Assembly: GCF_019059575.1 (NCBI RefSeq)
Contig: NW_024882034.1
Span: 396,821-460,820 of the forward strand
Source: Amphibalanus amphitrite
Lineage: Eukaryota > Arthropoda > Thecostraca > Balanomorpha > Balanidae
DNA length: 64,000 nt
Direction: 5' to 3'
The position numbers were made by a program, and so were the translations under genes. Shown here piece after piece: positions 6,601 through 62,490 of this stretch. Numbering within the stretch: position 1 is the stretch's first letter; every line of letters starts with the position of its first letter. The notes under the pieces are model-generated. The model searched no databases. It was not told the DNA's origin and was given only the letters and a program-made list of their open reading frames with translations.

Positions 6601-9600
6601 CCATCAGGCAGGGCGCTGATGGGACGCCCATGGGACAGCTGCTGGATGGCTATATTACCGCGCGGGGTGAGACGCAACCGGTACCAAACGGCAGCAACGA
6701 ACGGGCTACGGCCCGGAGGTGAGGCTCACATTGGTGGGCGGAGGGGAGAGGAGAGGGGAGGGAGAGGAAGGAAGAGGGAAGGAGAGGGAGGGAGAGAGAG
6801 GGAGAGGGAGGGGGAGGGAAAGGGAGGGAGAGGAGAGGGAGAGTTAAAAGGTAGAGAGGGAGGGATGGAGAGGGATAATTTGGGAGAGGGAGAGAGATGC
6901 ATATTGCATAATAAATATCAAACGTTATTCGGACGGACAGCTCTCGAGCAAAGAAGCATTCTGCAACGGTGATGAAAATTCAGTGAGAGAAATGCGGGAC
7001 AGGTTTTTCTTCATTTAGTTTGATCAAATATATGCACAAAGTCATTAGCCAATTAAATATCACCTCATGCAGTGGCAGCACAGGGTGCTATATATTCCAC
7101 CGGAGGGATGTGACGCGTCGAGCGCCACCCCACCATTCTGTATTATCACAGTATGTATCGTGCGGCATGGGGAGGGACATGGGAGACGATATAGGAAGAT
7201 TTGCAAAATAATTATGATTTTACGGGCTTTAACCCTATTAGTGGCAGGCTCCTGGCTACCCCTATTAGTGGCAGGGGGGGGGGGGCTGTTTACGACCCCC
7301 CTGATATCTCGAGATCTAACGGGCCGATTTTCAAAATTCAAACGGCATTCGATTTCGCTCAACGTGATCTACATTTCCAAAAAATAAAAATTAAAAAATG
7401 TCAATAGGGGGGTAGAGTGGGGTAAAAGCGGGCAAATTGCAGATACATTTTAGACTGTTTATCACGGCCAGGTTTCTGAACCAATCTTAACGCAACTTTT
7501 GCCGATCGATAGAGAATGAACCAGGAATTCACATGGATCCTAAAAATATGCATTCTCAAAAATCATAGGTGGATACAGATCATTGAGATTGGGGGTACAC
7601 AAAAAGTATAGTAAATAAGGTTTTTGTTGGTACTGTTTCTAAAAAGGGTGGTAATGGTCTTGTTATGTTACTATTTACTTATGAGAGAACGACTACAATT
7701 GCATTGGTCATGCATAGGCGGTGTCAGGGCACCTATGTTGGGAGGTAAAACACCTAACCCCCACTTTTTGGACGCCTGGATCCGCCTATTATAGCAAAAA
7801 CGTGTCAAAAGAGGATGCAAAATAACTTTGTATATGTTATCACATGATACCTTTCATTCACTGTTCGTAAAACTGGTGCATACAGTTATAATACATCAGC
7901 ATCGTGATCTTCGCCCAAATGACTCGCTTCACGAATAGGACTCCCCAATTCCCAGTGCTCTGGAGCCGCCTCTGGTAAAGTTATGAACTTGAAATTTTCA
8001 GGAAATGTGCCCCATTTAGTTTCAGGAAAAGTCAGAAAATTTCAGCATCGAAGCTTCAGCGGTTTCGGAGATATTCCCGAAAACCCTGAGGGGTGGATGA
8101 AAACAACCCCCCCCTGCCACTAATAGGGTTAAAGGAAGATCCGCGTGGCACGTTGAAAGCATATCCTGTGGAGACGCTATACTCTATAGCACACCCTACA
8201 ATAACCCATCGCGCATGGAGCAACTACCCCTTTATCACACAACGCACAGTTTTGTTATTCATGTATTCAAATGTATTCAGCGGTGTCATTCAGGGGAACG
8301 ATGTCTCATGTTTTCTCCAAACAGAGACATTGCTGCACTGTTCACCGGTTCTTGCCTAGCAGGCTGCCAGCTGCATAAGCAGCTCTGGATCAGCACAGGG
8401 CCGTATACTGATAGGCGTTTCTGTGTTACCGCTGTCAGTGTGACAGTGGCGGACAAGGGGCAGTCACCGGGCTGGGTCGGTGTCTTCGCGACCTGGCCAG
8501 TGGCCACCCCGCCGCGCCGACAGGGGACACTTCGGCTGGTGGGTCGGGTCGTTGTCTCCGACCTCATCGACCCTCCCTGCTAGGTATGACCCCCTGATGA
8601 CTCCGACCCTGGACCCATCAGGGCCGTCCAGCCCACCATGGAAGCCGCAGTGACCGTCCAGCCCATCACTACTGGAGCTGCCGTGACCGTCCACCTCCTA
8701 TAGACGGCCGTCACTCGGCGATTGACCGTCCCGGCCAGTTCATTCTGCGCTCGTTACGGCCGTCTGGGGCCGTCACTGCCCGCCGATTGGCAACGGGTCA
8801 CGTGATATACCCCTGGGCGGTGACCCCCAAGTGCCATTGTCGGGGGAGGGGGAGGGGTGGAGGAGGGGACAGACGGCGCTCCGTGACCCGGTCTTGTGAG
8901 CGACTCCCGTCCATCATTGGCCTGGTTGACGCGCGGCGCCGGTCCGACGCGCCGAATTTGTGGCCGTCGGGGCGTGCGGCAGAAGCTGGCGCAGTCGCGT
9001 CGATCGTGGCGAGAATTCATTAGGCGTCCGGTGGAGCGCGGTCGGGCCGTCCTGAGGTCCGCACCGATCCGTCATCGTGAAATATGTCCGTGACGACGGA
9101 CGGCCGAAATCGCCCCTGGCGGCAGGCCGACTACCACAAAGACGAGACGGACGGCAGCGGAGCGCACTGGTCGGGCACGGGCCGTCGGAGACAGTGCGGT
9201 GTGTTCAGGCACGGACGGAGACATGTGTGAGGAATGAGCGGACCGAGATAAGGGTTGGGAATGGACAGTGGGGGACAAAAGCAGTGCAAGTGTATGTAGA
9301 CGGAGACGGTATTGGGGTATACAGACGGAGAGATAAGGTCAGTACGGATGGAGACAGGGATCGGGAACGAGCGGACGGAAATATTATTTGGGTGGATGTA
9401 GGTATACGGGGGGACGCATTCCAAATAAGGACCGGTACGGATGGAGACGGAAGACAAGAACAGGCATGGGTGAGCGGAGGCAAGCACTTTCAGATAAAGA
9501 CAGCCGGAGTCGGGTACAAGCTTCATAAATTCGACAGATTATCTCCTTCCGATACGGAAATAGTCACTACATCTACCAGCGCCGATGATCGCTTCCCGCC

Positions 9601-11700: not shown

Positions 11701-12289
11701 CCTAGACGTCCGTCGGCTTCATCTGGAACCAGGCCGCGCCTTCTCGGCGCCACACACCGTCACCAGGTCCGCTCCCGGGAGAACACCAGCCGGCGATAGA
11801 GGCGCGCCAGTGGCGCCACAAACGTCACTGCACTGCGCCGCGCTCGTCACCCAGGCGTCAGTCGGATTCGCCGCGGCACGTCAGCGGTGCGCCAGGTTCG
11901 TCCCCGAGGCAGTATCGACGCAATTGGTAATCCCCTCTCTGACGTGGCGGCTCGATCTTGTGAGCCGAGCGGTCCGGTGGGCGCTCGACGGGCGCTGTAA
12001 CGGGAGATGAAGTGTCTTAGTTAGCTGTGTTGCTTAAATTGGGCGACCATATACCTGTGGCGTGGCCGCGACGCCCAAATGAAGGGGCGGAATAAAGAGC
12101 TCCGTGAAATTACACCGGGGAGGTGGGGGCCCGGCGGGAGTCGTCCTATAGTCGGTCCTCGCCGAAAGACGCAAACGAGACAGTAGACACATAGACAGAG
12201 GGATCGCTGAAAGATCAAAGGTAGATTTTGAATGTCTCCAAAATGTCTGCGTACTGCAATGGAGGCCTCAGAGACAAGATATGCATTAT
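11701..12289. promoter_or_regulatory. CpG-rich upstream region of the DPR-like gene (inferred)
   Basis: About 300 bases directly upstream (right) of the leader exon are CpG-rich, unlike the AT-rich flanks, and would be 5' UTR and promoter of the minus-strand gene. No TATA box or clear initiator could be fixed. A short out-of-frame upstream ATG (about 11718) opens a seven-codon frame overlapping the start. The region ends at the target site of the foldback element. Confidence 0.3.
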
Positions 12290-14514: not shown

Positions 14515-14523
14515 ATGCATTAT

Positions 14524-15315
14524 ACAGGACTAGGCATATCTCTGCACAGTGCGTACTTTGCAGCTAACGCGGGAGTAGCGAATCGTGTAACAATGCAAGA
14601 AAGTTACACGATTCGTCTTCCACATTTCTTTGGGAGTCACCTTGCACTTTACTGCCGAAATAGGTATATGCTGCGGCACAGAGGTCTATGTATGGCTGCG
14701 ATAAACATTGCATGATTCCACATTCAAGCTTCTGTAGAAACGCCAGTCACTGCGTCTGTAGGAGAGCTGATACCAATATAATCTAGCACTGGCTTCAAAT
14801 TAAAGATGTGTGGTCTAGATGCATTTTTTAAAGCATGTTTTATATGACTACGCCATCATAGAAGTCATTAGATAAAACCTCGTTACGGAGCGAGCGAAGC
14901 GAGCGTAGTCTTTCCTTAGATTAACGGAAATTTCTGAGTATGAGCGGCCGGCCGGCCGTGCGGACGCTTTTGCGAGGCTTATATCTCAGCAACCACTTGA
15001 CCGATTTACATGCGGTAAATTTTGTAGGGTAGCTTCATTCCTTCTACCAAGTATTGGACTATTCCCGATGCATGTGGGTGACCCCTTATGCACGTGCCAC
15101 GTGCAAAACGAAGAGGTGTCAGTTTTGTAATTGTTGCAATATCTCGGTAACTACTTGGCCGATTGCGCTGAAACTTGGCATGTAGGTAGGCACCCACTAG
15201 GCACTGCATATCCATGTGCCAGAGTGGGTTATTAATTAGATATACCTACTGTGTTTCTCAGACCTCAGGTCAGCTATCACAAGACGCACGCTTGTTTTAA
15301 GCTTTGAACATCGAG
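14524..15315. other. Region upstream of the THAP transposase, with a degenerate repeated motif
   Basis: No gene was found. Two related segments, TATCTCAGCAACCACTTGAC at about 14985 and TATCTCGGTAACTACTTGGC at about 15139, are each followed by CGATT and form a loose direct repeat. The same kind of motif appears inside the poly-G elements. A short palindromic patch rich in GAGCGAGCGAAGCGAGC lies near 14890. The left end of the 15-20 kb transposon should lie here, but I could not match it to an inverted partner on the right. Confidence 0.35.
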
Positions 15316-17157
15316 ATGGTGAATTGCTGTGTCCCAGGCTGTACGAACCGGTCAGGGGACAAAAACAAATATGCGTTCTACAGGTTTCCCAGCAACAAAC
15401 TGATCCGTCAACGCTACATTCGTGCGATAAGGTTAGTAAGAATTTTGAGAATCAGCATATTTTACATGTCAAGCTTTCATAAATCCCATCATAAATCTTT
15501 TCCATAAATCGTGCAAGGGAAATATGGCATCTTACCTTTTAATAAAAACATCAAATTATTGTTAACTATTTCTATAAAAGCTATAGAGTATATAATATCA
15601 GATAATGATAAATATTTATTTTTGGCATCATTACGGAATGATTCACAAGGTTAACTCAGAGCCTTGATCGTCAATCACTTGTGCATGGTGCGTAGGTACT
15701 CCATAAATAGCAGTAACAGTAGTCATAGCACAAATATATTTACCAAGTCTGTTGTATGTTTTGGATATGAACATTGAAACATTTACATTTTGTAACATTC
15801 AAATTGAAAATTATTAATAAACTGGCAAGCTTCATTTCAGAAACAATCGCATGAACCTGTTTTTGTGGATATTTTCTACTTGAAGGGCTTGTAACTTGCG
15901 TCATCCTAATCATGCATGCCTAATCTAAATCATCATGTAATCCCTTTTTTCTGTTGCAGGAGGGAGAACTTCACCCCTACCGAACACACAAGGATCTGTT
16001 CGTGGCACTTCCCTAATGGCAAAAAAGCAGGTCCAGTGAGGTTTCCATGGAATGAAGGGAAGCGGATCAACTTGCCTGATGATACCAGACCCCATCACTC
16101 TTCTCCTGGAAACAGAAGACAAGATGCAGCTGTGGAAATGGAAGATGCTGTCCTTGGACCACCTGTGCATAGTGAGGCCATGTTGTCTGCCGAGAACGAG
16201 CTTCTCAAACAGCATATCAAACGACTTGAAACTGCAGCAGCTTATCAGCAGCAGAGGTTCTGCTACAACCAGATTAGCCATAGCGAACAGCTAGTAACTT
16301 ACTATACTAGTTTGAGCAGAGCAATGTTTGAAACTCTAGTCACATATGTGAGCATGTGTGATTTTACATACCACACCTTCAAGGTCACAACGATGACATT
16401 AGAGGACCAAATTCTCCTGGTGTTGATGAAACTGCGACACAACTTTGGGCACACAGATCTAAGCGTGAGATTTAACAAGAGTGTAGCCACCGTTACAAAT
16501 GTCTTCAGGACATTTGTGTCCATCTTCGCTGAGGCTCTGTTCAAGCCTATTTTTGGGAAGGGTATGCCTAGTAGAGAAAAGAATTCTCAATCTATGCCAG
16601 CATCGTTCAGGAAGTTCAGGCACTGCAGGACGACACTTGATTGCACAGAAATTAGGATTCAGCGACCTGATAGCTGTGAGGGCCGCTCAAGCACCTACAG
16701 TGCTTACAAAGCTGCCAACACCTTCAAGGTCATGGTTGGGGTGGCACCCAATGGCACTGTGAACTTTGTCAGTGACGTTTACGGCGGCAATGCCTCTGAC
16801 AAGCTCATCGTGGAGACTAGCGGCCTGTTGGAGCAGCTAACCACAGGCGACCTCATCCTGGCTGACAAAGGTTTTCCTATCAAGGACATTGTACCTGATG
16901 GCGTCACCGTCAACACACCTGCGTATCTATTTCAGCCTCAGTTCACCAAGCAAGAGGTGATGCACAACAGGGAAGTTGCCGAAGCCCGCGTGCACGTTGA
17001 GCGCGCGATTCAGCGGCTGAAGTATTACACCATTTTAGATGGCATACCCCACCAGTATAGGAATATGATAGACAATATAGTTCGTGTCTGTGCCTTCCTC
17101 ACCACCGCCCAGAGCCCTATCATAAGCCACGAGAAACTTAGCAACATGTCCTCTTGA
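15316..17157 (+). CDS. THAP-domain DDE transposase (ISL2EU / Harbinger-like)
   Basis: Two exons: 15316-15431 and 15960-17157 (intron GT at 15432, acceptor TTCTGTTGCAG), giving 437 residues. The junction completes an Arg codon. Residues 1-60 form a C2CH THAP zinc finger, a DNA-binding module (C5, C9, C52, H55, with FP at 24-25). The rest matches the DDE_Tnp_4 endonuclease family: Asp266 in LDCTEI, the GG-N-A-S-D motif, Asp341 in LILADKGF and Glu386 in ARVHVERAI, so the catalytic triad looks intact. A coiled-coil-like stretch (about 113-135) follows the finger. AATAAA lies at 17439. The neighbouring SWIM/YqaJ nuclease is convergent; pairing of such genes is, as I recall, a mark of ISL2EU elements. 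No stop or frameshift is visible, so the copy may be young. The start is fixed by the THAP N-terminus. Confidence 0.88.
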
Positions 17158-17438
17158 GCCGGGTAGCAAACTGCGCGTTATTAGTGGTATCACCCTGTTA
17201 GATGCAACGTTTGCGTAGTTATCAATTGAAGTAAGTCAATAGCATTGTCTGTGTTTTTCTCACCAACGCCCGGAGTACTATCGCGGGAAACTGTGCATTT
17301 TGTCCTAAACTGGTTTGCGAACTGTTTGATATGTCTTCACTGTCTGATGAAACACTTCTTGAGTTATAGCTGTCATGGAAGTATGATAATCTGGAAATTG
17401 TTTCAGCTGTGCGCTGTGGTACGCGACATTTACTTGTC

Positions 17439-17444
17439 AATAAA
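17439..17444 (+). terminator. Polyadenylation signal AATAAA of the transposase gene
   Basis: Canonical AATAAA 282 bases after the stop codon, the first one downstream of the transposase on the plus strand. Confidence 0.6.
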
Positions 17445-17464
17445 ACTGTCCACAAACATGTATG

Positions 17465-17470
17465 TTTATT
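17465..17470 (-). terminator. Polyadenylation signal (AATAAA on the minus strand) for the nuclease gene
   Basis: TTTATT on the plus strand reads AATAAA on the minus strand, about 220 bases past the nuclease stop codon. It lies just beyond the plus-strand signal, so the two mRNAs would be tail to tail. Confidence 0.5.
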
Positions 17471-17483
17471 ATTTGCATTATTT

Positions 17484-17633
17484 ACACACAGTTTGACGTT
17501 TGAAAGTGAAACACGACAACCAGCCTGGCGCGCACCTGTACAGTGACACACATTTACTTACGCACCTGTACATTACACACAGTTTGACGTTTGAAAGTGA
17601 AACACGACAACCAGCCTGGCGCGCACCTGTACA
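17484..17633. repeat. 59-bp direct duplication between the transposon genes
   Basis: The segments 17484-17542 and 17575-17633 are the same 59 bases (starting ACACACAGTTTGACG and ending GCGCACCTGTACA), separated by 32 bases that themselves repeat part of the end (CGCACCTGTAC). They lie in the shared 3' region of the convergent transposase and nuclease genes. Confidence 0.9.
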
Positions 17634-17687
17634 CATTACATCACAGTGGCAAATCTCATATCGCCCAGCAGGCATGAGCCCTGCGGG

Positions 17688-20046
17688 TTAAGCGGACCCG
17701 ATGATGCTCGGCACCATGTGGACCCTATAGAACTGTTTTAGGAGTTCTAGGTTTACAGTCCATGAATCGCTTCTGGCGATGGTAACGATGTGTAAGTCAC
17801 GAGTCGTCCAGACAACAAAGTCACACTTGGTGAAGCCACTTAACCACATCTGGCCCTGTACCTGGTGGAAGTAATCGTGATCTTCTTTAAGATTCAGGTT
17901 TTCGTCCAAGAAAAACTTTCCATCTGCTTGCACGGCTTCCTGGATCGTTCGACACCTGTGTGTCCACGGACACTTCACCTCTAGGAGTGTATCCCCCACT
18001 ACACCATCTGGAGAGGCCCCAAGCATACCATCTTCAGAGAGAAAAATCCCATTCTCTTCCACCTTTTTTCCAGTGCGATTTTCATACGCTCGCTTTGCAG
18101 CTGCTTCGTGGGTTCGTCCCCATTTTACAGCTGCACTGCCGGATGGGTCATAGCCACCAAGGAGCCTTTTGAATAGTGACTTTGGGTATCTTCCTCTGGC
18201 AATTGCCTTCAAGACGAGGCCGAAGTTGCTCGATGTCAGCCTTCCCTTTCTAGCAACAAACCACTTGGGGTTTTTGACCTGACCACTGGTCACCCTCTGC
18301 ACCTCTGCAATCTCTTCCTTTGAAAGAGACAGCATTGCTAAAAGGAAGTGGGACTTGTCAGCTGATGCATGAAACTCAGCACTAGTTAGGATGCTGTCGA
18401 TGTTTGGTACCTTCTCTTCTGGGGAAGGCTGAGACTCTGGAGCCAACAGCCATGCCAGCCCACATGGCTGCTCCCTCACCTGGTCATACAGCCATGCCAG
18501 TTGGTCCTCTTTGACAGAGCTCACCAGCAAAGAACTGTCTTCCTGGGGGAACATCTCCTTTGCTTTCAACATTGTCGCGTTGCTGGATCCTCGGTTCCAT
18601 TGACACTGCCGATCAGTCTGCGACCAGTTCTTCTGTGCATACAGAAGGATGGCAGCCATGTGGGAGCACCGATGCTGACCATTTGGGCATGTGCAGCTTC
18701 CATCCACTGGCTTCTTGTTCTCGACAGTGACCTGAAACACAGAATAACAACAATTTACACCTTTGCAGCAGGTAATCAGCAAGCCTTATTCAGATTTTTA
18801 TTAAATACCTGCATGATATTTTTCTAACACATTAGTTCAAACCATATTCAATTAATATCAAAGTGGACGTTTCACTCAAGTGAAATGTTTATCATGAAAA
18901 TAAGTTCACAAAATGAGCACAATTGATTGCAGCTGTTTATATTCATAGAACCTTCCAAATATGCATTATAATCATAGTTGATATTACAAAACATAAATGT
19001 TTTGGACAATGACTTGATGTTAGATTTTAGCAAAAAGGGATTGCTTTTTAAAAGTATATGCTGTATATCTGGGGATGCTTTAATAAAAGTAAACAAAAAT
19101 AACTGAAATTTGAAAGCAAATTTCTTTGAGTGATCTTGAATGAAGTGAGACTGAAGATTAGATACATCGCCTAAACCAAATTGCCATTTCCATTTCAACT
19201 TATAAACCCTCCTATCCATTTAATTCCACTAAATGTCCATGGTTGCACAGGATGCCACACAAGTCTGCCGCACACTTGCTACGTAGATCAATTGATCTAT
19301 CATTTTACTATACACTTAAATTTAAAACCAAGCTAACATCAACTACACTCCGGGCTGGAGGAGGTCAGGTCCTCCACAAACAATACCAAGTGGCCTCGGT
19401 ACTGGTAGGGCAGACATAGCACGAGCTGCCATGTGAGATATCATAGGTTGAAGGTGGTAGGTTCAAGGTTGTAGGTTGTAGGAAGTAGATTGTAGGTCAG
19501 GTTACGTATCTTTGGTTAGGTGTTTTGATTTGGTTAGCAAAATGCATTCTGGGGCATATGGCAGCTCGTGCTACGTCTGCTACCGTGGCATCTCATTTTT
19601 CCTATTCAGCTTTTGCTAAGGTAAAATAATGCAAGATGCCTGTCACATGGGGATAATATAAAGAACTATGGAGTACCTATGTAGACTCGAATGAAAATAT
19701 ATAATGAAATGTTTCTTTTATTTGGTCATGTTCACTCAATACTTTTGCCACATTCACCTCATTCTCAATTGCAATTGCAATTTTGTTCCCACATTCATGC
19801 CACGATTTCATGAAGGCAGATTTCATAAAGTACTTGAAATGCCTATCACAAGCATGAAGAAATACTCACTTGAACATCATAGGTCCTTTTCTTCATGCTG
19901 GCCTCAACAGAAGCCACAATGTATTTGCCATCCTGCAGGGCAATGGATCGGATTTTGCCACCATCCAATGCTCTTTCACCCTTCTCAATCACACTGGACA
20001 TAGTTTGAAAAAAATCACCTATGGCTGCAACACTAACGAAGGCCAT
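17688..20046 (-). CDS. SWIM zinc-finger / YqaJ-type nuclease of the same transposon
   Basis: Two exons on the minus strand: 20046-19870 (59 codons, donor GTGAGT) and 18731-17688 (acceptor TGTTTCAG), giving 406 residues. The junction restores ...TYDVQ-VTVENKK. Residues 72-83 carry a SWIM-type CxC...CxH zinc ligand set (C72, C74, C81, H83), a nucleic-acid or protein-binding module. Residues from about 210 to 375 match the YqaJ / lambda-exonuclease-like fold: a TSSNFG motif, WGRTHEAAAKRAYE, then ASPDGVVGD and LLEVKCP with Asp301, Glu310 and Lys312 as expected metal-binding and catalytic residues. Related proteins are commonly encoded by DNA transposons next to the transposase; a role in processing excised or target ends is inference. 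An earlier exon may exist upstream of 20046. The frame is intact. The intron (18732-19869) holds a small element with inverted ends. Confidence 0.82.
19404..19584. mobile_element. Small element with inverted ends in the nuclease intron
   Basis: GGTAGGGCAGACATAGCACG at the left and the inverse of GGTAGCAGACGTAGCACGAG at the right bound 180 bases rich in GTAGGTTG/AGGTTG repeats. I could not fix a target duplication. It is a miniature inverted-repeat element or a local inverted duplication. Confidence 0.5.
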
Positions 20047-20785
20047 GATAGCTCACACCATGCCCAAACACGTCAAACACAGCCTGCAGCCCAGAAACGT
20101 GCAAATGTCCGTAACGTACTATTGTTTTCACGTGGTTTTCACCAAATGTCACATATGCGCCACAAATGCTAACACCATTGTGAATTTAGTAGCCTCACAT
20201 TTCTTTGGGCTTTTTCAGCCAAATTTCGATGAAACTTGAAGCAAATCAATTTCAGAAATGTTATTCATCCATCTAAGTTTCCAAAGAAATTCCAAATCAG
20301 GGTCGGACAATTTTTGAATCGCCACAATACACCTTTCTAGATAATCCCCTATCTCTACAGCATTAGCGCAGTCAGCTGTTGGAACCGTGACGTCACACTT
20401 AACAGCCCTATACTGATTATCACCTCGCCTTTCTGCGAAAAGGAGACTACTGAAGGGAGTTTATTGGATGGACGCTAACGCTTCGGAATTTATCAGAATA
20501 TGTTCATCCAATTTGAACTGGGCTGTAAACAAGCGACCCCTGCTGACGTCATCGGCTCAGATCAACCCAATGCTCTCCAGTAGAATGATGAAGGTCTTGG
20601 CGCCGTTATTATGCAGTGCCAGGGCCATAGTTATCGACATATCACTTTGGGCGCTCGTAGAATAAAAACATTTTAATGTTGGTTTATAGTGACTTGAGCA
20701 AAACGTTCTGCTTCTGATATTCAACAATTTTTTTCTTTTTACAATCTTTCGATTTTTTCCCTGTATTCCATTTTTCATTATGCCT
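20047..20785. other. Upstream side of the nuclease gene; right end of the transposon not located
   Basis: This should contain the promoter of the minus-strand nuclease gene and the right terminus of the transposon. I saw no inverted partner for sequences left of 15316. Short open frames on both strands (20021-20239, 20468-20665) are unrecognised. Confidence 0.4.
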
Positions 20786-23359: not shown

Positions 23360-23484
23360 ATGTAAAGTGTCATTTTATCTTATGCTGCTTCGTCACGAAT
23401 TCGATGAAAGAGTAAATACCCGGTAGGCATCTATTGTTTTTTTTTTCTATAAAGGATATAACAAGTCATTTTATATGTATAGTA

Positions 23485-24703
23485 GGGTGTTTCATTACAC
23501 TATGGTAAAATAATGTTGGTTCAAAACTCAGCCATATCGACTTTGCCCCAACTCTACCCGTAAAACTGAATCGATTGATACGCTTGAAACCCAAATTTTA
23601 GTATATTTAGGGGTCGCACACTTTTGTCACCAAAACTCGTTACACAGAGAAGGGGGCACAACCTTCCTTGGTGCGCTTGGGCAGCGCCTTCCGGTTGAGT
23701 TCCACGACTCGCAGGCCATCGTTGTTAGGGCCCTGCCGCCCTCAATAGACCGTTGCAGAGCCCTCAGATGCCAGCATAGCCCCCGCAGCCTGGTTGTGTT
23801 GGGGCCCTCAGAGGCCGTCGCTGGGCCGCCTGAAGCCAAATGGACCCTCAGACTTGAGTTGGGTCTAGGGCCGTCACGAGGGCCCTCAGAGACCGTCGTA
23901 GAGACCCTCAGGGGCCAGTGGGGCCCCTGGAGTCCTGTGGGACCCTCAGCGGTCGTCATGAGGGCCCTTAGTGGTCGTTATAGGGCCCAAGGGGACAGAG
24001 TTCGTCGTGAGAGCCCACAGAGATCATCGTAAGGGCCCTCAGAGGCCGTCATATGGGCCCTCAGAGGCCAGCGTGGCCCCTGGAGTCTCTGTGGGACCCT
24101 CAGCGGTCGTCACGAGGGCCCTTAATGGCCGTTGTAGGGCCACAGGGGACAAAGCCCTCAGGTGGGAGCCCTCAGAGATCGTCATAAAAGGGCCCTCTGA
24201 GGCCGTCGTGGGGGCCCTCAGATGCCGTGTGGAGCACCAAACGCGGCTCGGGACACTTCTAGCCGGTGTGGAGGCCCCGACTAGCATGGGGCGCTCCTGA
24301 CCATAAATAGACACCCCGGATGATTCCACATCAGTGTTCGTTTCCCGATCACTGGTTTTCAGGAGAAAATGTATTGGATGGTGCGACGGGCCCCTTGTAT
24401 GGATTTTGGGGGTGCAAAAAAGATATGTTTGCACCCCCATGTTTTTCGATGGGGGTGCAGCTGCACCTCCTGCACCCCCTATTCCGCCGCCACTGCCTGG
24501 CTTTCTCAACCAAATCAGTTCGCAGGAAGACTACTCATGTTACGGCCAGAAACAAAATCAGAGATGAAAAGTCGCAGAAATGTGCGACCTCTAAACATCA
24601 TCAGAATGAAGTGAAATTTTACACAGAAACTTGTGAGCAGATGACATTTGAGGGGAACATCGATATGACTCGCAATATGGCACTTTGAAAATGTGAAACA
24701 CCC
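23485..24703. mobile_element. TA-flanked element containing GGGCCCTCAGAGGCC tandem repeats
   Basis: The ends are TAGGGTGTTTCATTAC-like and the inverse ATGTGAAACACCCTA, with TA at both junctions (23483-23484, 24704-24705), which suggests a Tc1/mariner-class non-autonomous element. The middle (about 23750-24290) is an array of GGGCCCTCAGAGGCCGTC-like units, with a higher-order duplication of about 155 bases (around 23911 and 24066). Frames running through the array on both strands are repeat artefacts. Confidence 0.65.
23750..24290. repeat. Higher-order tandem array of GGGCCCTCAGAGGCC units
   Basis: Imperfect units of roughly 20-40 bases share GGGCCCTCAGAGGCCGTC. A larger block containing GGCCCCTGGAGTC, GGGACCCTCAGCGGTCGTCA and AGGGCCCTTA occurs twice about 155 bases apart. 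A looser array of the same flavour is present at about 44690-45130. Confidence 0.75.
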
Positions 24704-24841
24704 TAATGTATAGGGCATAACATTTCTATCGTTTGCTAAAACGAAAAGCTTTGTGGACTCCAAGACGGCTTATCCTTATGAAAGTGTATCTCATCAAAGA
24801 AATAGCACTTCCTCTACATTACAATCCATATTAGCCGTTGT

Positions 24842-26172: not shown

Positions 26173-26249
26173 ATGGGGCTTAGACGGTGCACCGCTCTTT
26201 CTTATATGATACAGATCTCTTATCCCGCGGCCGCGCCCCGTTGAGGTCT

Positions 26250-26600
26250 GGCAGGTTCCACATCCTGTTGGGGGGGGGGGGGGCAATGGGCCCCCCGTCG
26301 TATCTCCGGAACCAATAGCCGGATCGGAAAAATTCAAACGGCATTCGAAAGAGCTCATCGAGATGCACAGCACAAGATAAGATATCGATGACTTTGATAT
26401 TTGACCTGTGACGTCACAGGGAGGCCAAACAAGGTCAAATCAGTCCAATTTACAATGACGATAAGTCGGTCATAAAAATGCAAAAAAAAATCGCAATCTT
26501 GGGTTCTTTTATCTGACGACCTGGAAGGTCACCGATTGTCTTGAAATCCTAAAAATGGGCACCACTCACTGCGTCTTGTGAGGGCACACATGCTTCTTCT
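26250..26600. mobile_element. Fragment of the TTAA/poly-G family
   Basis: A G run (26267-26282) is followed by GTATCTCCGGAACCAATAGC, CGGATCGGAAAAATTCAAAC and GGCATTCGA, the same order of motifs as inside copies at 7.2 and 32.6 kb. TGACCTGTGACGTCACAGG and further GGTCA sites follow. The right end is not identifiable, so this is a fragment or a diverged copy. Confidence 0.55.
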
Positions 26601-26647
26601 TTTCCCGTCATGACCTAGCGCAATTAGGGACAACATGGTAAGGGGCG

Positions 26648-26885
26648 TATCGAGAGTACATGAACCTCCAGGCTCCACGAATTAAACTATTAAAACAGTT
26701 ACATTTAAGGCGTACCGGTTTCGTCTATTGACTTCTTCAGCGCCGTATGAAACAAGGAAAACAAGGTTCCTTGTTTCATACGGCGCTGAAGAAGTCAATA
26801 GACGAAACCGGTACCGGGTACGCCTTAAATGTAACTGTTTTAATAGTTTAATTCGTGGAGCCTGGAGGTTCATGTACTCTCGATA
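26648..26885. repeat. Near-perfect 110-bp inverted repeat (hairpin)
   Basis: The left arm (26648-26758) and right arm (26768-26885) are exact inverse copies except for a 7-bp indel near the GGTACCGG motif, with a 9-base loop AAACAAGGT. The direct repeat ATGGTAAGGGGC occurs just outside (26635-26646) and again at 26911-26922, 25 bases beyond the right arm. It may be a small inserted palindrome or a template-switch product. Confidence 0.9.
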
Positions 26886-27396: not shown

Positions 27397-27666
27397 CATC
27401 GGCGCGGGAGCCGGGGGGGGGGGGGGGGGGCAGTGGGGACAGCTTGCCCCCCCAACTCTGGGGCCGTGGGGGCGGTGCCCCCACAGCTTTGAGACGGAAT
27501 ACCACACTTTTTTTGCAGATGTTTTCTTTTTTTGTTGAAAAAGCCGAGGGGTGAAAAATAAGCGGCCTAAAACCGGTGAGAAAACTAGATTTGGGGGTAC
27601 CCTAGGTTAATCTCTATTATGGTGTGCCCCCCCCCCCCCAGTCGGAAAGTAGTTCCCGCGCCCCTG
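27397..27666. mobile_element. hAT-type miniature element, 270 bp, with G/C runs near both ends
   Basis: A perfect 8-bp target duplication TCCGTAAC flanks it (27389-27396, 27667-27674). The right end, read inward, is CAGGGGCGCGGGAACTAC; the left end is a decayed version, CATCGGCGCGGGAGCC. Long G and C runs lie just inside the left and right ends respectively. Non-coding. Confidence 0.85.
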
Positions 27667-29756: not shown

Positions 29757-30228
29757 CAGGCGCGGATACAAGGGGGGGGGCCATGGGGGCCATCCCCCCC
29801 TTGGCCGATTTTTTTCAAAAATAAAATAAAAAGTTAAAAAGTTAAAAAGCTGAAAAGGGGGCCTCCTGAAAATAAAGTGGCCGAAATCCGATGAGTTTTT
29901 TTTAACCTACCCACTTAGTTATTTCTTAGAAGACTAGCTGAGAAGACTTCTTTGTTAGAAGATTGGTAAAGCTTTTCATAACTTGGAGGTCTCTTATACT
30001 CACAGAGATGACCACTTTTACAGGGCCTCCTAACCTGCACAGAGGGCCTCCAAGCCTGCACAGATGTTGAGATGTTGCCTGAACAGCTAGATAAGCTCAA
30101 TAGACGCAGTTTTTTTTTTGGGGGGGGGCCAACAAGTGGGAAGATGGGGCCTCCAACAGGTGGGATTATGGGGGGGCCTCCTGGTTTCTAATGGCCCCTC
30201 CCTTGGAGATTTTCTGGATCCGCCCCTG
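29757..30228. mobile_element. hAT-type miniature element, 472 bp
   Basis: Ends are CAGGCGCGGATACAAGGGG (left) and the inverse of CAGGGGCGGATCCAGAAAAT (right). A perfect 8-bp target duplication GTGCTAGA flanks it (29749-29756, 30229-30236). The GGGGCGGATCCAG type of end is widespread among animal hAT elements. G-rich runs lie inside both ends. Non-coding. Confidence 0.92.
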
Positions 30229-32493: not shown

Positions 32494-32585
32494 TACTCTC
32501 ACGAAACTAATTATTTGATTACCAATTCGTGTTCTTTACTTCTAATGTTGATAGTAAATACAAAAAAGACAGCATATAGTTTTAA

Positions 32586-33754
32586 CCCGCGCCCCGTAGG
32601 GCTACCGGCGGACCCTACCACCCGTAGGGGGGGGGGGGGCCGTTTCGACCGCCCCCTAAGATCTCGGAAAGTTACCGGCCGATTTTCAAAATTCAAACGG
32701 CGTTCGATAGCCCCACCCGGGAACTACCTTGTGACCAAATTTCATTGACCTAGCTCAAACCGATGACGTCACAGGTCAGGTCAAAGGTCAGATTTTCACC
32801 GTTCACAGGCAATTCAAGAAATGTCCTGTGAAAGCGAGTAAATTGGTAATTTATTGAAAACCATCGATGGTACATTGTTCGTCAAACACATACTTTGCTA
32901 TCTGAGGTCACTGATACCAGGTCAGGTCACAGCGAGGTCAGGTCACCGGGGGTCACAATATGAATGTGTCGTGTGATACATGTTTTATGGTCCATTTTAT
33001 ATGACAAATGCGATTATGTGGGTTAGGCAGCTTTTGGGGCCAGCCTAGGTCACGTTTTGGTGAAGGTCAGGTCAAGGTCAGGTCAAATTAGGTCAAATTT
33101 CAAAGTTGATATTTTTGCATAAAATGGGTATCGATTCGATGCAGCTCGTCACGGGGAGTCTAATGGTGGTCTTCGTTTTGCTCTACGAGTTCTAGAATTG
33201 CCAAAAATTGAGTTTGAAAATTTGACGTCATCATTTTTGAACAGTTTTTTCGCTATAACTTGGCCAAAAAACGAGGTATCGATCTGAAATTTGGTATGTG
33301 GATAGAAGACGGTAGGCACTATCACATATATTCCGGTTTTTTTCGAAACTCAAAAAACTTTTTGGATTTTTTGGCGAATATATCCAAAAAAATGTTTTTT
33401 TGATTTTTGGGGGTCAAAACTCAAAAAATTAAAAAATTCGAGATAGCAGTTTTGTAGCCCTGTCAATTCTACACCTTTTACGTATTGATCTTTTTTCTGT
33501 ATCTTCAAAGCTGTAGTCCTGACAGGTCTTCTCGCGAAGGTCTTTTTTCGGTCGAAAATGACAGAACATGACGTCACTCTGACGTCATTTGTGGCCAACC
33601 TATCATAGCCTCTAGAAAAATTTTTGGTCACAATGTGTAAAATCGATGCCCGGAGGGGTCCTGAAAGTTTGGTGGCGATATCTCCGGCCGTTTAGGAGAT
33701 ATCGACCGAAAAGGACAGGGGGGCCGTTTCGGCCCCCCCCCTACGGGGCGCGGG
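32586..33754. mobile_element. TTAA/poly-G family element (copy 2), 1.17 kb
   Basis: TTAA (32582-32585 and 33755-33758) flanks a perfect terminal inverted repeat CCCGCGCCCCGTAGGG. A G run (about 32627-32639) follows on the left and a C run (33731-33741) mirrors it on the right. The inner left block contains ACCGGCCGATTTTCAAAATT. Between 32770 and 33110 there are at least a dozen AGGTCA-type half-sites, including a perfect DR1 at 32778-32790. Non-coding; a piggyBac- or Kolobok-like mechanism is inferred from the TTAA. Confidence 0.88.
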
Positions 33755-33758
33755 TTAA

Positions 33759-34469: not shown

Positions 34470-35803
34470 AGAACCGACTAAAAATTAACCCGAGCAAAAC
34501 TGAGCTGTTGTTTTGTTTGTCAAACCTAAGCAAAAAAAAAAAAAATGTGACTCCGTAACAGTGAAATTCGGTGACGCAAATATCAGTCCATCTTCCCATG
34601 CAAAAATCCTTGGTGTTTACGTTGATTCGGCGTTGTCATCATGGGAAAAGCAAGTCTCTCAGGTTACCCATCACTGTTTCCATGTCCTGGTCGGTTTATC
34701 TAAACTGAGACACAGAATATCTTTCGAAACCAAGAAACTACTGATTCAGGCACTTGTGTTCCCTCATGTGCATGTTTAAAGGGACCCTCCCACCTTAACA
34801 TTACATTTGAGTTGAGATAGCCAAAATGGGGTCCCTGGCTCACAATTACCGGTTTCGGCACTCACAACATCGAGAAATGCCTTAAATCGGAAATATTGAA
34901 TTTCAAAATTGCAGCATTTTGATTCAGAGGGGCTAATGCTTAGGAATACCCCTCTGAATGTGTGACGTCAGCGCAAATATCTAACGATTTTTAAATGTTT
35001 GACTAAAACGTTTTGTAGCACGCGGTGGTATATGCTATTTGCGCGCAGCATCTGCCGCAAACGCCGCACTTCTAAAATAAAGTCGCTAGAAACAGCGGAG
35101 ATCCCAAAAAAGTAAACAAAAGTAAAAGTCTAATATCTTGAAAACCGGTGAATATTTTTCGGTGAAATTTGGTAGATATTCGTTTTCGATCTTTCTGAAC
35201 CGAGCGACATCACTTTCATGCCAATTCATAAACTTCTTTGAAGGTGGGAGGGTCCCTTTAACTGTTTGGGGTGGTTGTTCTGCCACGCTTCGTCACCGAG
35301 TGCAAAAAGCCCTAAATTTTGGAGCCCGTATCGTCACTGGTCTGTCCCGGCGTGAGCATGTTACACCTGCCCTGGAGATGTTGGGGTGGGAGAGGTTTGA
35401 AGGCATGTTGGAGGGGCGTAACCTGGCCATGCTGTGTAAGCTAATGTCACCCGATGCACCGCCGGCGCTGGCCGATCTCGTTCAGAGCCGGTCCGATGTA
35501 TTGGACAGGTCCACCCGCGGGACGTGTGGGCTGGGGGCCAACTAGAGCTCCCGAGAGTGAAAACTGAACGTACCAAACGGGCGTTTCCATTTAGAGCCGT
35601 GAGTGCATGGAACGCGCGCAAGACTCATTCATAACTGTCTAGGTGTGTGTGTCTCGATAGGATAGATGGGAACATTTTATCATGCTGTGTTTTATACTTT
35701 AGTAGTTTTAAGTACCCTGGCTTTTAATCGTGTTTATGACGTGAGAACAGAAAAGCCATGTTTTATGGAGTTCTCAATAAAACTGACTATGACTATGACT
35801 ATG
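34470..35803 (+). pseudogene. Non-LTR retrotransposon relic: 3' end of a reverse transcriptase, interrupted
   Basis: Before the interruption the plus strand encodes LKINPSKTELLF, then KILGVYVDSALSSWEKQV and FPHVHV. After it come VWGGCSATLRHRVQKALNFG and a stretch with LGWERFEGML, ending at a stop near 35543. These are the thumb and C-terminal motifs of non-LTR reverse transcriptases (NPSKTE, LGV, WG..). A related C-terminus (FPFRAVSAWN, 35587-35616) is in another frame, so the copy is frameshifted; an A run at 34531-34543 also breaks it. The 3' end is AATAAAACTGACTATGACTA repeats (35775-35803). The 5' part is missing. The T2-like miniature element at 34780-35257 lies inside it. Confidence 0.75.
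34780..35257. mobile_element. T2/Kolobok-like miniature element (copy A)
   Basis: TTAA (34776-34779, 35258-35261) flanks ends AGGGACCCTCCCACCTT and the inverse AAGGTGGGAGGGTCCCT. TTAA-AGGRR ends are those described for the T2 (Kolobok) family of miniature elements. It splits the reverse transcriptase relic and is related to copy B at 54336 in the opposite orientation (shared TTTGAGTTGAGATAGCCAA). Confidence 0.85.
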
Positions 35804-38509: not shown

Positions 38510-38513
38510 TTAA

Positions 38514-39404
38514 CCCTCGCATGTGTAGGGGGGGGGGGTCGGATGAACCCCCCATGGTTTTTCGCGAATAACTCGCGTAAAAAGCGGCCGATCGCGACGA
38601 AACTTTCAGTACCCTCTCATTGATCAATTTTACATCTACCCTGAAAATTTCATGACCCTGACCCAAATGACCTTTGACCTGTGACCTCTTTTCCGAGACC
38701 ATGTTTGGCCTGAATCGCGATTCCGCGTATGTCGGCTCGCATTAGCCGCGCGTTTGCAAGCTTTTCGTGGTTTCAAACGTTCAAACATGTGATTTGATGT
38801 TGCTCCCATGCATTAGAATGGGTGTCAAGGTCACCTGAAGGTCAGGTCAGGTCATTGACCTTTGGTGACCTCGGGTGACCTCGGTTCACTTTTTCGAGTT
38901 TTACATGTTTCTAGGCTAGTTTTTGGAGCTGAATTCGAATTTAGCAACCATTTGAACATTTACGAAGTAGTTTTGGTGCCTTCGTAACATGTTACGAAGC
39001 TGTCAGAGGCGGTTGACACGTACTACGAATACCCGTCACAACCCCTACTGGTTGACCTGACCTGACCTGACCCGACCTGGTCTAAATGCTTAAAGACATC
39101 ATCTGTGATGAAAACTAACACGATATTCGTGATGAGCACCCCGAAAAACCCCTTAGCAGCCACACTTTACGACTTTCTAATAGGTCCCGATTTTCCCGAC
39201 TTTGGGTCATTGACCTGACCTGGAAGGTCAACCAATGACCTAGGACCTTAAAATTGGGTATCATCGGCTTCCTCTCGTCACGGGCAACACGCTCGTTTTT
39301 TCCGCGAAGCTCTAGCTCGATCAGGGGCCAAACGGCAAGGGGGGTCCAACCGACCCCCCCCCCCTACACATTAGAAGCTGGCAAACGCCGCACACATGCG
39401 AGGG
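38514..39404. mobile_element. TTAA/poly-G family element (copy 3), 0.89 kb
   Basis: TTAA (38510-38513, 39405-39408) flanks CCCTCGCATGTGT inverted ends. On the left a G run follows directly; on the right a 30-bp segment separates the end from ACACATTAG-type sequence and a C run. Dense TGACCT/AGGTCA sites occur at 38650-38700, 38825-38885, 39050-39080 and 39205-39245. The block next to the right C run (GATCGAGCTAGAGCTTCGCG and AAAAAACGAGCG on the minus strand) closely matches the left subterminal block of copy 4 at 54200-54250, showing common descent. Non-coding. Confidence 0.88.
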
Positions 39405-39408
39405 TTAA

Positions 39409-48342: not shown

Positions 48343-48832
48343 TTTTAAGTTGAATTTGAGGTCACAGGTCGGGTCAAGGTCGGGTCAAACACCTGAAATC
48401 GGGCTTTCAGTAGCATGGACTTCAGGACTTCGCAATGGGCGCCTCTCGTCACAAACTCGTTTTCATGTAGGGGTCAGTCAAGCATAGGTCAGGGTCAAGG
48501 TCAGGTCAACCGGGTAGGCACATATCCCCGAAAATCAAAACTGATATTCGCAGTCTGTGACACATGTTTTATGGGTAATTTGGGCCGTAGAACACGATGG
48601 TGACATTCATTTTATCATATGTGTACGTGTTTGGCTAAAAAAGTTCAATTTAAGAAATGCATACAGTAGTACAGTACAGTAGTAGTAGTGTATACAGATG
48701 CTAAGTCTGTGTCGTGTTAGTTCCAAATCGAAACGAATTAGTTGCAAATCGTTTACGTTTCAATTATTTGAAATGAAGAGTCGTTGGCAGGAAGCAGATC
48801 GCCCCCCCCCCCTCGCATCAGGGTTTGTGCGT
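48343..48832. mobile_element. Degraded TTAA/poly-G family fragment
   Basis: GGTCACAGGTCGGGTCAAGG and GGTCAGGGTCAAGGTCAGGT clusters, CTCTCGTCAC followed by CTCGTTTTC, and GTGACACATGTTTTATGG all have counterparts in copies 2 and 3. A C run followed by TCGCATCAGGGTT at 48803-48828 resembles the right end of copy 3. The left end is lost or replaced by the TAG microsatellite. Confidence 0.5.
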
Positions 48833-54123: not shown

Positions 54124-54131
54124 ATCCTTAA

Positions 54132-55844
54132 CCCTCGCCGGACCTATCAGTTTTCTACATACGCGCCCGGCCGAGGGGGATTGGTACGACCCCCCCCCCC
54201 TCGCCGTTTCGTCCCTGATGGAGCTAGAACGTCGCGGAAAAAACAGCGTGTGCGCCGTTAGACGCAGCGACTGGTACCCAATTGTAAGGGCTCAGATCAA
54301 CCGATGAACTCTGAGGTCAGGTCAAGCGGCCTTAAAGGGACTATCCCACCTTCTAAAATGTTGTTAAAACCAGTTGAATTGTGCCTGACTTTATAGATTT
54401 GATGACCAGGAACACGGTTCTGGCATTTATTTTTCATTAAACATCTTAGGCTTCCCATATTCCAAACACAAACTTTCAAATATGTGACGTCACAGCCCAA
54501 AATTACCTCCTTCCCCAGGCCACATTACTGTCATAAAGCTGATTCTTTTTACTCTGTAGGCACCACAACAAAGTTCAGACCAAGTTTTAAGCGATTTTTC
54601 AACGACAAACCCATTTAAATCAGAATGACTAAACGAGGTGACGTCACACTAACGGTCGCTCCATGTTGAAGATAGGGCCTTGTACAAGGCCCATTTTCAA
54701 ATGAAGGGAACGAATTTCTTCAACACCAAGAGGCCGCGGGGGTTGCAACCTAGATAGATAGTGGTTTCTGAACCTCGCCGCAAACTTGGCTATCTCAACT
54801 CAAACCCCATGTTAAAGGTGGGATAGTCCCTTTAAGTAGGGGTTCGGTTTTTGGTAAATAGCTTGTCGAAAAACGGCCGCAGACCCGCGATTTTGGCATC
54901 ATCCTGTTCGCCTTGCTCAAGCGCGTCGAATGCTTTACTTTTTGTTTGGGTGAGGTCAACATGAGGTGTTGACATCGGGTCACGGTCAGGTCAGAGCCCC
55001 CAGGCCACGAAGCTGGTCGAAGGAGGTCATGTTGCATATCGTGTGATTCGGCAGATTTTCCTGAGGCCATTGGTGGCTTTCCCAACTCGCTAGGTCAATT
55101 TGATCAGGAGTTATTGACGAAAAATTCTTGACCCTAGTGATGTCATAAATGACGTCACACAAGGTTAACAATGCAAAAGTGAAGCATCGAAACTTGCAAG
55201 GAGTGCATGAAATCACGATTCCGTGCGGTTGAGATAGTACGAGATCGTCCCCGGCACCAAAATGGTAGCTTTCCATTTTTCACCATCGACTTTTAGGTAA
55301 TGGTAAAGTCACGTTCAAATCTTTGTTCGCCCATAATATGCACGTGACTGACCTGACCTCATGTGACCTTTAGGAAGAACTGAGATATACAAGTTGTGAG
55401 ACCTCTGGAGAATACTAGGCACTTGTAAGCTTCATCTCCCTGTGAAAGCTCCTCTGGCACTGAGGGCATTGCAAAGTTGCGACATCTGAGACCGTGCAGA
55501 GGTTCACTGATCACGTCATAGGTCAGTGACCCGACCTAACCCAAAAATGCGGTTGGTGTCAAAAGATCAGGCGTGAATCAAAGGTCAGGTATGTCACGTT
55601 TCTGGGCGGTGTTTCACGGGATGCTGCTACCACGCTGCTATCAAATTGCGCGAGCTGACGTCACACTTGTGGTAGTGTTGGAGCAATGGGCCTGTTGATG
55701 TTTCCATGGAAACCCAATTTGACACGTGTAAAAGCAGCGTGCTGCTATCACCTGTGAAACAGGGCCCTGCTCTATCTCCAGCGTGTTCGAAGCTATCGTC
55801 TGGCGGGGGCGGCAGAACCCCCCCCCCCCCCGCGGCGACGAGGG
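54132..55844. mobile_element. TTAA/poly-G family element (copy 4), 1.7 kb, with a nested element
   Basis: TTAA (54128-54131, 55845-55848) flanks short ends CCCTCGCCGG and the inverse of CCCTCGTCG. C-rich runs occur near both ends (54191-54203, 55818-55831). The left subterminal block (GATGGAGCTAGAACGTCGCG, AAAAAACAGCGTG) matches the right block of copy 3 in inverse orientation. GGTCA-type sites occur at 54312, 54950-55000, 55350-55375, 55515 and 55582. The T2-like element at 54336-54831 is inserted in it. Its left end lies within the target duplication of the adjacent retrotransposon. Confidence 0.8.
54336..54831. mobile_element. T2/Kolobok-like miniature element (copy B)
   Basis: TTAA (54332-54335, 54832-54835) flanks AGGGACTATCCCACCTT and the inverse AAGGTGGGATAGTCCCT. 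The right side contains TTGGCTATCTCAACTCAAAC, the inverse of the left side of copy A at 34.8 kb, so the two copies are the same family in opposite orientation. Confidence 0.88.
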
Positions 55845-55870
55845 TTAAAGAAGGTACAATAAAGCGAAAT

Positions 55871-56175: not shown

Positions 56176-56650
56176 ATCCTTTAACCGCAGCCTGCTGGGG
56201 ATCCTGGATTTCCAAGCCTGGAGGGGGGGGGGGTGGAAGGGGCTGAAACCCCCTCTAACTCGGCTCCTGGTCCTGGGCCACGTAGCGATACGGGGTAGGC
56301 GGCCTGAGAAAGAACGTCAAAAATAATGACGAAATGACTTTGGCCACTGTTTGGGTTAAAATGTCAGGTCACCAGAGGTCATCAAAGGCCAAATTTTGCC
56401 AATTTTCAGGCCAAATGTCGGCAATTTCAACAAAACGGACCATGACAGAAAACCAAGCTACAACGCCTTGGAGAAGCACATTTGCTTTTTCAATGCTTTT
56501 TCTGAATACTTCCTTCAGATTTGACAAAGGTCAACGGTTTTGCCTGCAAGGGACAAAAACTGCCAAAATGGATGATTTTTTTTTAAGAAATAGCTTTTCT
56601 GCAATAGCGTTTCACTCAAGCATGACTGTGGCGTGGCGGCTCTAAATCCC
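56176..56650. mobile_element. Possible left-end fragment of the TTAA/poly-G family
   Basis: TTAACCGCAGCCTGCTGG at 56179, a GGATCCTGG/GCCTGGAG stretch and a G run (56223-56232) resemble the duplicated left end of copy 1. GGTCACCAGAGGTCATC follows at 56368. No right end was found, and the assignment is tentative. Confidence 0.35.
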
Positions 56651-62285: not shown

Positions 62286-62490
62286 AATGTGCCGGTTTTT
62301 TACTTTGACCTTGACCTCTGACCTTGATAACTGACCTGAGATAAAACAAAATTGGGTGCTTTAGAATCTTCCTGTGCAGATCTCTCGTCAGGTACCGTTT
62401 GTTTCCGTAGCTCCCTTATTTGCGGAGTTAGTAGGGGGGGGGACGGAAAACGGCCCCGGTTGCGGTGGTTGGGATTACCCCTCGGGTCCT
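62286..62490. mobile_element. Fragment of the TTAA/poly-G family
   Basis: TGACCTTGACCTCTGACCTTG and AACTGACCTGAG, then AAAATTGGGTGC, CTCTCGTCAGG and GTTTGTTTCCGTAGCTCCC occur in the order seen in the right part of copies 2 and 3, ending at a G run (62433-62440). Terminal TTAA-CCC was not identified. Confidence 0.45.

Follow-up and report, generated by a model that had tools for sequence, protein, structure and literature searches.

Four TTAA-flanked elements with one short and one long G-run end, probably non-autonomous relatives of piggyBac, in Amphibalanus amphitrite

Four complete TTAA-bounded elements, c1 to c4, lie in the window, the stretch of 64,000 nucleotides of Amphibalanus amphitrite DNA that was analysed, and share the general form TTAA-CCC...GGG-TTAA with a length of 0.9-1.7 kb. 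They are very probably non-autonomous piggyBac-like elements (MITEs), which would be mobilised in trans by a transposase that binds a palindrome inside each end. The palindrome begins with a run of G that starts near bp 14 in one end (the short end) and near bp 42 in the other (the long end), and its position is the feature common to families with different tip motifs. In this one genome, natural ends built on the same plan with many tip motifs number about 36,000 of the short and 44,000 of the long type. As piggyBac-like MITEs, the elements are of an ordinary kind and an unusual form, and the two-end rule is exceptionally sharp in this one genome.

Extents, copies and target sites of the elements

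All four of the complete copies listed by an earlier, sequence-only reading of this DNA are present, with the correction that the right border of c1 is 8132 and not 8133 (Table 1). CCC starts all eight ends, and c2 begins with CCCG. When TTAA pairs separated by 200-3500 bp were scanned, the 16-nt tips paired at 16/16 positions in c1 and c2, 14/16 in c3 and 9/16 in c4. The null set of 100 dinucleotide-preserving shuffles gave a mean of 0.00 TTAA pairs at >=14/16 and of 0.01 CCC-starting pairs at >=10/16, so that the 9/16 of c4 is not distinctive by itself. The length of c4 is inflated by a nested Kolobok-like element, and the interiors of c1-c4 have little overall similarity.

Table 1. Parts of c1-c4 and related features in the window (bp counted from the first C after TTAA)
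Feature	Positions	Strand	Description
c1	7229..8132	+	904 bp; TTAA on both sides; left end long, with the tip repeated 16/16 at +27 and G12 at bp 42; right end short, with G8 at bp 15
c2	32582..33758	+	1177 bp; TTAA on both sides; long end left, short end right
c2 left terminal repeat	32586..32601	+	inner part CCCGTAGGG again at 32621-32629, +28 bp inward
c2 long-end palindrome	32627..32656	+	G13 from bp 42, C5 at bp 67
c2 short-end palindrome	33718..33741	-	G9 from bp 14 off the right tip, C6 at bp 32
c3	38510..39408	-	899 bp; TTAA-bounded; reversed: left end short, with G11 at bp 15; right end long, with G11 at bp 41 and ATGTGT again at +26
c4	54128..55848	+	1721 bp including nested element; TTAA-bounded; left end long, with G5 at bp 44 and C11 at bp 59; right end short, with G14 at bp 14
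Kolobok-like element nested in c4	54332..54835	.	TTAA on both sides; tips AGGGACTATCCCACCT 16/16
Decayed relative	26220..26648	+	left long-type end (TTATCCC, G14 at 26270); right long-type end
Possible further long end	56181..56402	+	TTAACCG tip, G11 at 56223; profile E 0.0027
Possible long-end remnant	62303..62480	-	masked profile E 0.0085 at 62303-62435

In the assembly (807.55 Mb, 2644 contigs), a first look gave 4015 candidates for c2, 1846 for c1, 3765 for c3 and 10,408 for the interior of c4. Among 40 scored copies each, identity was 96-100% for c2, 94-100% for c1 and 97-100% for c3; for c4, only the allele matched at 100%, and relatives reached 78-83% over ~760 bp. The exact 20-nt tip of c2 occurs 2731 times in the assembly, and its reversed control 0 times. 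The earlier suggestion of several subfamilies with one architecture therefore holds, c1, c2 and c3 being separate high-copy families. In the 20 best-scoring copies fetched for each of these three (60 in all), divergence from the majority sequence was 0.6% for c2, 0.8% for c3 and 1.1% for c1 (from the 15, 18 and 15 copies in which both edges are exact), values that are biased low because the fetched copies are the best-scoring ones.

Identical 4-mers flank 54 of these 60 copies (c2 18/20, c3 19/20, c1 17/20). TTAA is found on both flanks in 49 copies (15 of c2, 18 of c3, 16 of c1) and another identical 4-mer in five (TTAT in two plus one, CTAG in one, TTCA in one); the flanks are unequal in six. 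The joined flanks of nine of the 60 copies match across the junction in sequence fetched for the analysis, and seven of these matches were aligned. Five of the seven are paralogous empty sites that hold the target once (c1 copies L106 and L113, c2 copies L066 and L073, c3 copy L094), those of L106 and L073 with one mismatch within the 4-mer; L094 was inserted at TTAT, and its empty counterpart is in the window near 14883-15131. The other two were unusable, that of a c2 copy (L064) for a gap at the junction and that of a c3 copy (L088) because it meets a neighbouring element. The duplication of TTAA anticipated by the sequence-only reading is thus supported by the 49 TTAA-flanked copies and the five empty sites, but the specificity for TTAA that it assumed is not strict, because TTAT, CTAG and TTCA are duplicated too. 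Membership in hAT was rejected, since an 8-bp target duplication is expected there and 4-bp duplications were found. All four elements are also present on the allelic contig C660, so that none of them is polymorphic between this contig and the window.

Other insertions were observed in the window. A hAT-like insertion at 23483-24705 (8-bp duplication ATGTATAG, tips TAGGGTGTTTCA) is absent from C660, which has a single ATGTATAG; also missing there is 15229-20408 (about 5.2 kb), with open reading frames for DDE_Tnp_4 (15910-17157) and SWIM/YqaJ (17688-18785), about 0.4 kb of other sequence standing in its place. Two hAT-like miniature elements at 27397-27666 and 29757-30228 have 8-bp duplications (TCCGTAAC and GTGCTAGA) and, a little inward of their tips, G-runs that have C-run partners. 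A palindrome at 12288-14516 was rejected as a TTAA element because its edges carry a 9-bp duplication, ATGCATTAT; it corresponds to a long-armed foldback element (12290-14514) with tips TAGGGGGGTCC, presumably Mutator-like. A Kolobok-like element at 34776-35261 (TTAA on both sides, tips AGGGACCCTCCCACCT) lies inside an apparent degraded reverse-transcriptase frame, a likeness judged by eye; the frame joined across the element resumes in another frame and is not a clean insertion proof. This element and the one nested in c4 were kept separate from c1-c4. For the insertion of c4 as a break in an RNase-H-like frame, no homology was found on the other side. The open reading frames of the window include an importin-alpha-like one (armadillo repeats) and a short-chain dehydrogenase. 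Rfam gave no match within the window, and in viral contigs the pattern scan picked out 29 stretches, with paired ends at 10/16 at most (two of the 29, with the same sequence) and nothing usable.

The motif AGGTCA is dense inside c2 (15 copies, 32746-33095), c3 (17, 38668-39241) and c4 (11, 54314-55587), with none in c1. The four elements, which make up 7.3% of the bases, hold 43 of the 92 window copies of AGGTCA and likewise 12 of the 13 of AGGTCAGGTCA, and the first AGGTCA cluster stands at long-end bp 183-200 in c2, c3 and c4. AGGTCA possibly represents nuclear-receptor half-sites or a further transposase motif; on AGGTCA in MITEs, nothing relevant was found in the literature searched. The palindrome TGACGTCA, which we take to be CRE-like, has eight of its 15 window copies inside c2 and c4 (32764, 33223, 33569, 33580, 54485, 54639, 55150 and 55656), two of the eight within the nested element.

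Organisation of the short and long ends

The G-run of c1, c2, c3 and c4 starts at bp 15, 14, 15 and 14 in the short end and at bp 42, 42, 41 and 44 in the long end, a difference of 27, 28, 26 and 30 bp. The inner tip motif appears again in the long end of c1 (16/16 at +27), c2 (9/9 at +28) and c3 (6/6 at +26), and a recognisable copy was not found in the long end of c4. The shuffle p values are <0.001 for c1, 0.015 for c2, 0.31 for c3 and 0.99 for c4, so that only the repeats of c1 and c2 are significant individually. In the 13 nt preceding the G-run, agreement is best within an element, this being the best of the 24 possible assignments among the four elements (39, next 35).

The G-run forms the outer arm of a palindrome of the G...C type, which is near-perfect in the majority sequence of copies, e.g., G10-CCG-TTT-CGG-C9 in c2. 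The longer run is outermost in seven of the eight ends, the exception being the left end of c4 (G5, then C11). The G-left/C-right appearance described earlier arises because each end, read from its own tip, has an inward G-run; this look was confirmed in 8/8 ends, although the left end of c4 deviates in the lengths. The start of the G-run is fixed in 91 of the 96 ends of 48 copies, its length ranges from 4 to 18, and the C-run partner is kept in all 96; in the c2 copies, the long-end run lies at bp 42 in 14/15 and the short-end run at bp 14 in 15/15. Folding was discarded as proof of a hairpin, because only four of the eight ends fold better as DNA than shuffles. Of all G or C runs of >=8 in the window, 14/21 have a partner run, compared with 7.7% of random 35-mers.

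Alignment of the ends showed that the long ends are mutually alignable, as are the short ends. A profile built from three ends recovered the fourth for all four long ends (E 2e-8 to 7.5e-20) and all four short ends (E 6e-4 to 5e-9). When G/C runs of >=4 were masked, three of the four long ends were still significant (E 1.7e-10, 1.3e-12 and 6.5e-9; left end of c1, 0.089), as was one of the four short ends (right end of c2, E 0.006; right end of c1, 0.31), and the left end of c3 and the right end of c4 were not recovered by the masked short-end profile; the best reversed-window decoy in the masked search had E 3.2. The four short ends are matched by the long-end profile too, aligning from model position 25-34, which displaces them by 27-28 bp. 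What the sequence-only reading described as conserved subterminal blocks on two sides proved to be two versions of a single long-end segment, starting at bp 90 in the left end of c1 and bp 89 in that of c4. One variant is shared by the left ends of c1 and c2, the other by the right end of c3 and the left end of c4.

Among the fragments, 26220-26648 is a clear relative, which seemingly has two long-type ends in one fragment. Its ends match the long-end profile at E 1.6e-11 and 3.2e-8 (4.2e-5 and 2.1e-8 with runs masked), and the right one is truncated by another insertion. The matches at 56181 and 62303-62435 are weak only (E 0.003 and 0.009); for 56181-56402, there was no match in the run-masked profile and no fitting right tip within the window. 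The stretch 48359-48827, with AGGTCA clusters followed by C11 and a GGGTTT edge, is possibly another decayed relative.

A search of the whole assembly for TTAA-CCC ends with at least eight Gs, also suggested earlier, revealed two preferred run starts. The pattern, TTAACCC followed after a gap by a non-G base and eight Gs, was counted on both strands and in three bins of run start, with the reversed pattern as control. The run starts at bp 13-17 in 36,360 ends (18,116 + 18,244; control 34; ~7,300 per bp), at bp 23-35 in 640 (329 + 311; control 71; ~49 per bp) and at bp 40-44 in 44,371 (22,117 + 22,254; control 28; ~8,900 per bp). As a rough estimate, long-end elements would amount to about 5-6% of the assembly (44,371 x about 1 kb / 807.55 Mb, allelic contigs included on both sides). 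On contig C1, among the matches listed, 12 of 14 reverse-strand short ends lie 0.9-2.0 kb from a forward long end.

TTAACCC ends with runs of at least six Gs were also surveyed in 169 kb of fetched sequence, comprising the window, flanks and transposase loci. Outside the c1-c3 families there are 23 such ends, one of them the right end of c4; the run lies at bp 14-18 in 15, at bp 41-43 in seven and at bp 69 in one, which runs into a neighbouring tip, and the C-run partner is present in 22/23. Among paired elements with runs of at least five Gs, 26 of 27 were scored as one long and one short end. The remaining one, L045, came out as short/short, a G5 within its tip having been taken for the run; with its G12 run at bp 41, it is read as long/short. 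The element c4 is absent from the 27 pairs because its tips are too divergent. At positions 1132-1135 of L033, adjacent G-run ends seem to share one TTAA, the end of one element being the start of the next.

Transposases, proposed mechanism and alternative explanations

None of the 27 window open reading frames tested (of 105 of >=100 aa, plus smaller ones inside elements) has a piggyBac domain, and no transposase domain was found in c1-c4. The assembly has at least 116 scored matches to PF13843, many of them open frames of 550-680 codons, and PF13843 was found in 0/14 control genomes. These results support the supposition of the sequence-only reading that the transposase is not encoded in the window. 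Five of six transposase loci read are elements of 2.7-3.4 kb with CCCATTAR tips, TTAA and intact PF13843 genes; no G or C run >4 was found in the first 96 nt of either of their ends. At the sixth locus, a TIR was not found, and the 1 kb upstream of five more transposase genes had no TTAACC in gene orientation. A longer copy with the same ends and a piggyBac transposase, for which a search had been proposed, is not among the six loci read. The tip of c1 (CCCTATTAGTGGC) resembles that of the CCCATTAR elements (CCCATTAGTGCC), a likeness that may offer a lead to the transposase, and a lead only.

Four of 14 piggyBac transposase copies whose surroundings were seen sit inside G-run elements. At L124, the transposase element lies inside a c4-like element, and the joined flanks match c4 bp 3-668 at 82.5%; L126 lies inside a 3.9-kb element with long and short G-run ends; the flank of L130 is 86% like c4, and that of L132 is 91% like c2 (over 100 nt). 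The G-run element at L126 was rejected as the owner of the 604-aa transposase, because seven of eight other copies show the inner tip and unrelated flanks; the inner tip is absent from the eighth.

In the proposed mechanism, a transposase supplied in trans would cut at the CCC/GGG tips and excise the element, which would then be joined into a 4-bp target, mostly TTAA, thereafter present on both sides. The short end consists of a terminal motif of ~13 bp followed directly by the G-run...C-run palindrome, and in the long end the palindrome lies ~27 bp further in, behind a repeat of the inner terminal motif that can be recognised in c1-c3. If the T. ni piggyBac transposase is a guide, the core of the enzyme would read the tip motif and paired C-terminal cysteine-rich domains would bind the palindrome, and the long end would accommodate another dimer, which would keep the unlike ends together. 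Tip motifs that differ among families and agree within an element would be expected if each is tuned to its cognate transposase core. We infer the palindrome to be a binding site, movement to occur in trans and the transposase to be of the piggyBac type.

The sequence-only reading had named piggyBac and Kolobok transposases side by side. Elements of the Kolobok type, or of another TTAA superfamily such as Sola3, would use the same target with another transposase; they would agree with the TTAA duplications at c1-c3 copies, and genuine Kolobok-like elements with AG...CT tips and TTAA occur in the window (34776-35261 and 54332-54835). Such an origin of c1-c4 is nevertheless very improbable, and piggyBac is preferred, because Kolobok termini are described as 5'-RR and YY-3' (PMC9587614) and all eight ends here are CCC...GGG; moreover, the two-end offset is described for piggyBac. 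A chance likeness of unrelated G-rich repeats with TTAACCC edges would fit interiors that are little alike and the loss of most short-end similarity upon run masking, but its probability is negligible in view of the masked long-end E values compared with the decoy, the 21 matches (five ends) to TTAACCC-N(7-37)-GGGGG compared with 0.13 in shuffles, the genome-wide counts and the target duplications; the genome-wide spacing and the empty sites refute it.

A less remote, though still unlikely, explanation is that the elements are piggyBac-like and that the palindromes are a general by-product, or a structural feature (slippage, hairpin, G-quadruplex), common to many DNA transposons here. The two hAT-like miniature elements with G-runs and C-run partners, the foldback element, which starts TAGGGGGG, the range of run lengths among copies and the modest number of ends that fold better than shuffles all speak for it, and, because G-run palindromes occur at hAT-like tips too, they need not be sites for a piggyBac domain. 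Some 80,000 ends at two run starts against 640 between them and a C-run partner in every one of the 96 ends argue the other way, and a piggyBac-like offset is unexpected for a by-product.

With c1-c4 taken as piggyBac-like MITEs whose palindromes would be bound, it is conceivable, and suggested here tentatively, that a piggyBac lineage has a transposase that reads a G-tract palindrome by its start and not by its length, under a rule of one short plus one long end (bp ~14 and ~42). If this is true, a slippage-prone G-run site would stay usable despite its varying length, and the end rule would be the DNA-transposon counterpart of the V(D)J 12/23 rule, readable in some 80,000 natural ends. With so many natural ends, rules of end pairing, spacing and motif matching would be derivable by statistics. 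The elements also show that G-tracts of very low complexity can keep exact positions in mobile DNA.

Comparison with known TTAA elements

No report of G-run palindromes at TTAA elements was found in the open-access literature searched. The CMITEs of Acropora corals are likewise TTAA MITEs with CCC tips, family-specific TIRs and a conserved inner region; they are about 100 bp long, have a single conserved interior of 75 bp and carry CC[C/T]T at their tips (PMC2872659), whereas the elements here are ~0.9-1.2 kb (c4 1721 bp), only subterminal positions are conserved, and c2 has CCCG. CMITE membership was ruled out by the size of 899-1721 bp, the dissimilar interiors and the CCCG start of c2. The CCCATTAR piggyBac elements of the same genome have TTAA and CCC tips in common with c1-c4, but the G-run palindrome is absent from their first 96 nt.

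In animal piggyBacs, CCC is described as the usual first three bases of otherwise divergent TIRs (PMC10813416). CsuPLE1.1 of Chilo suppressalis and other piggyBac-like elements have TIRs of 13 bp and subterminal inverted repeats of 25 bp in asymmetric positions; unlike c1-c4, CsuPLE1.1 is autonomous, and the available part of its description does not mention G-run palindromes (PMC4273485). piggyBat of Myotis lucifugus is a piggyBac relative that also needs unlike ends, and the palindrome bound by its cysteine-rich domain has no relation to the one in piggyBac (PMC11707139, PMC13405395). It has three palindromes, in the left end only, whereas c1-c4 have one on each end.

T. ni piggyBac (IFP2) has in common with c1-c4 the TTAA target, the CCC tips, a palindromic subterminal repeat and one end that is 27-28 bp longer, with a duplicated inner motif (PMC7351741, PMC12324416). 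Distances of 3 and 31 nt separate its subterminal repeats from the TIRs (PMC12324416); the right end contains an insertion and a duplicated motif, RE bp 34-63 being almost identical to LE bp 7-35, and the unlike ends were termed a puzzling arrangement and an enigmatic feature in the structure paper (PMC7351741). Unlike the non-coding c1-c4, it is autonomous, 2475 bp long, and has its own TIR and a palindrome without G-runs; in c1-c4, the palindrome arms are variable G/C runs that start 2-3 bp nearer the tip, and the tip motifs vary by family. The T. ni piggyBac transposase touches bp 7-16 with its core, and its cysteine-rich domains, as a dimer, sit on the palindrome at bp 17-33 (PMC7351741). 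TTAA duplication, CCC tips and asymmetric subterminal repeats at a T. ni-like offset are all found in the elements described here, and their palindrome stands at the place where the cysteine-rich domain of piggyBac binds its own.
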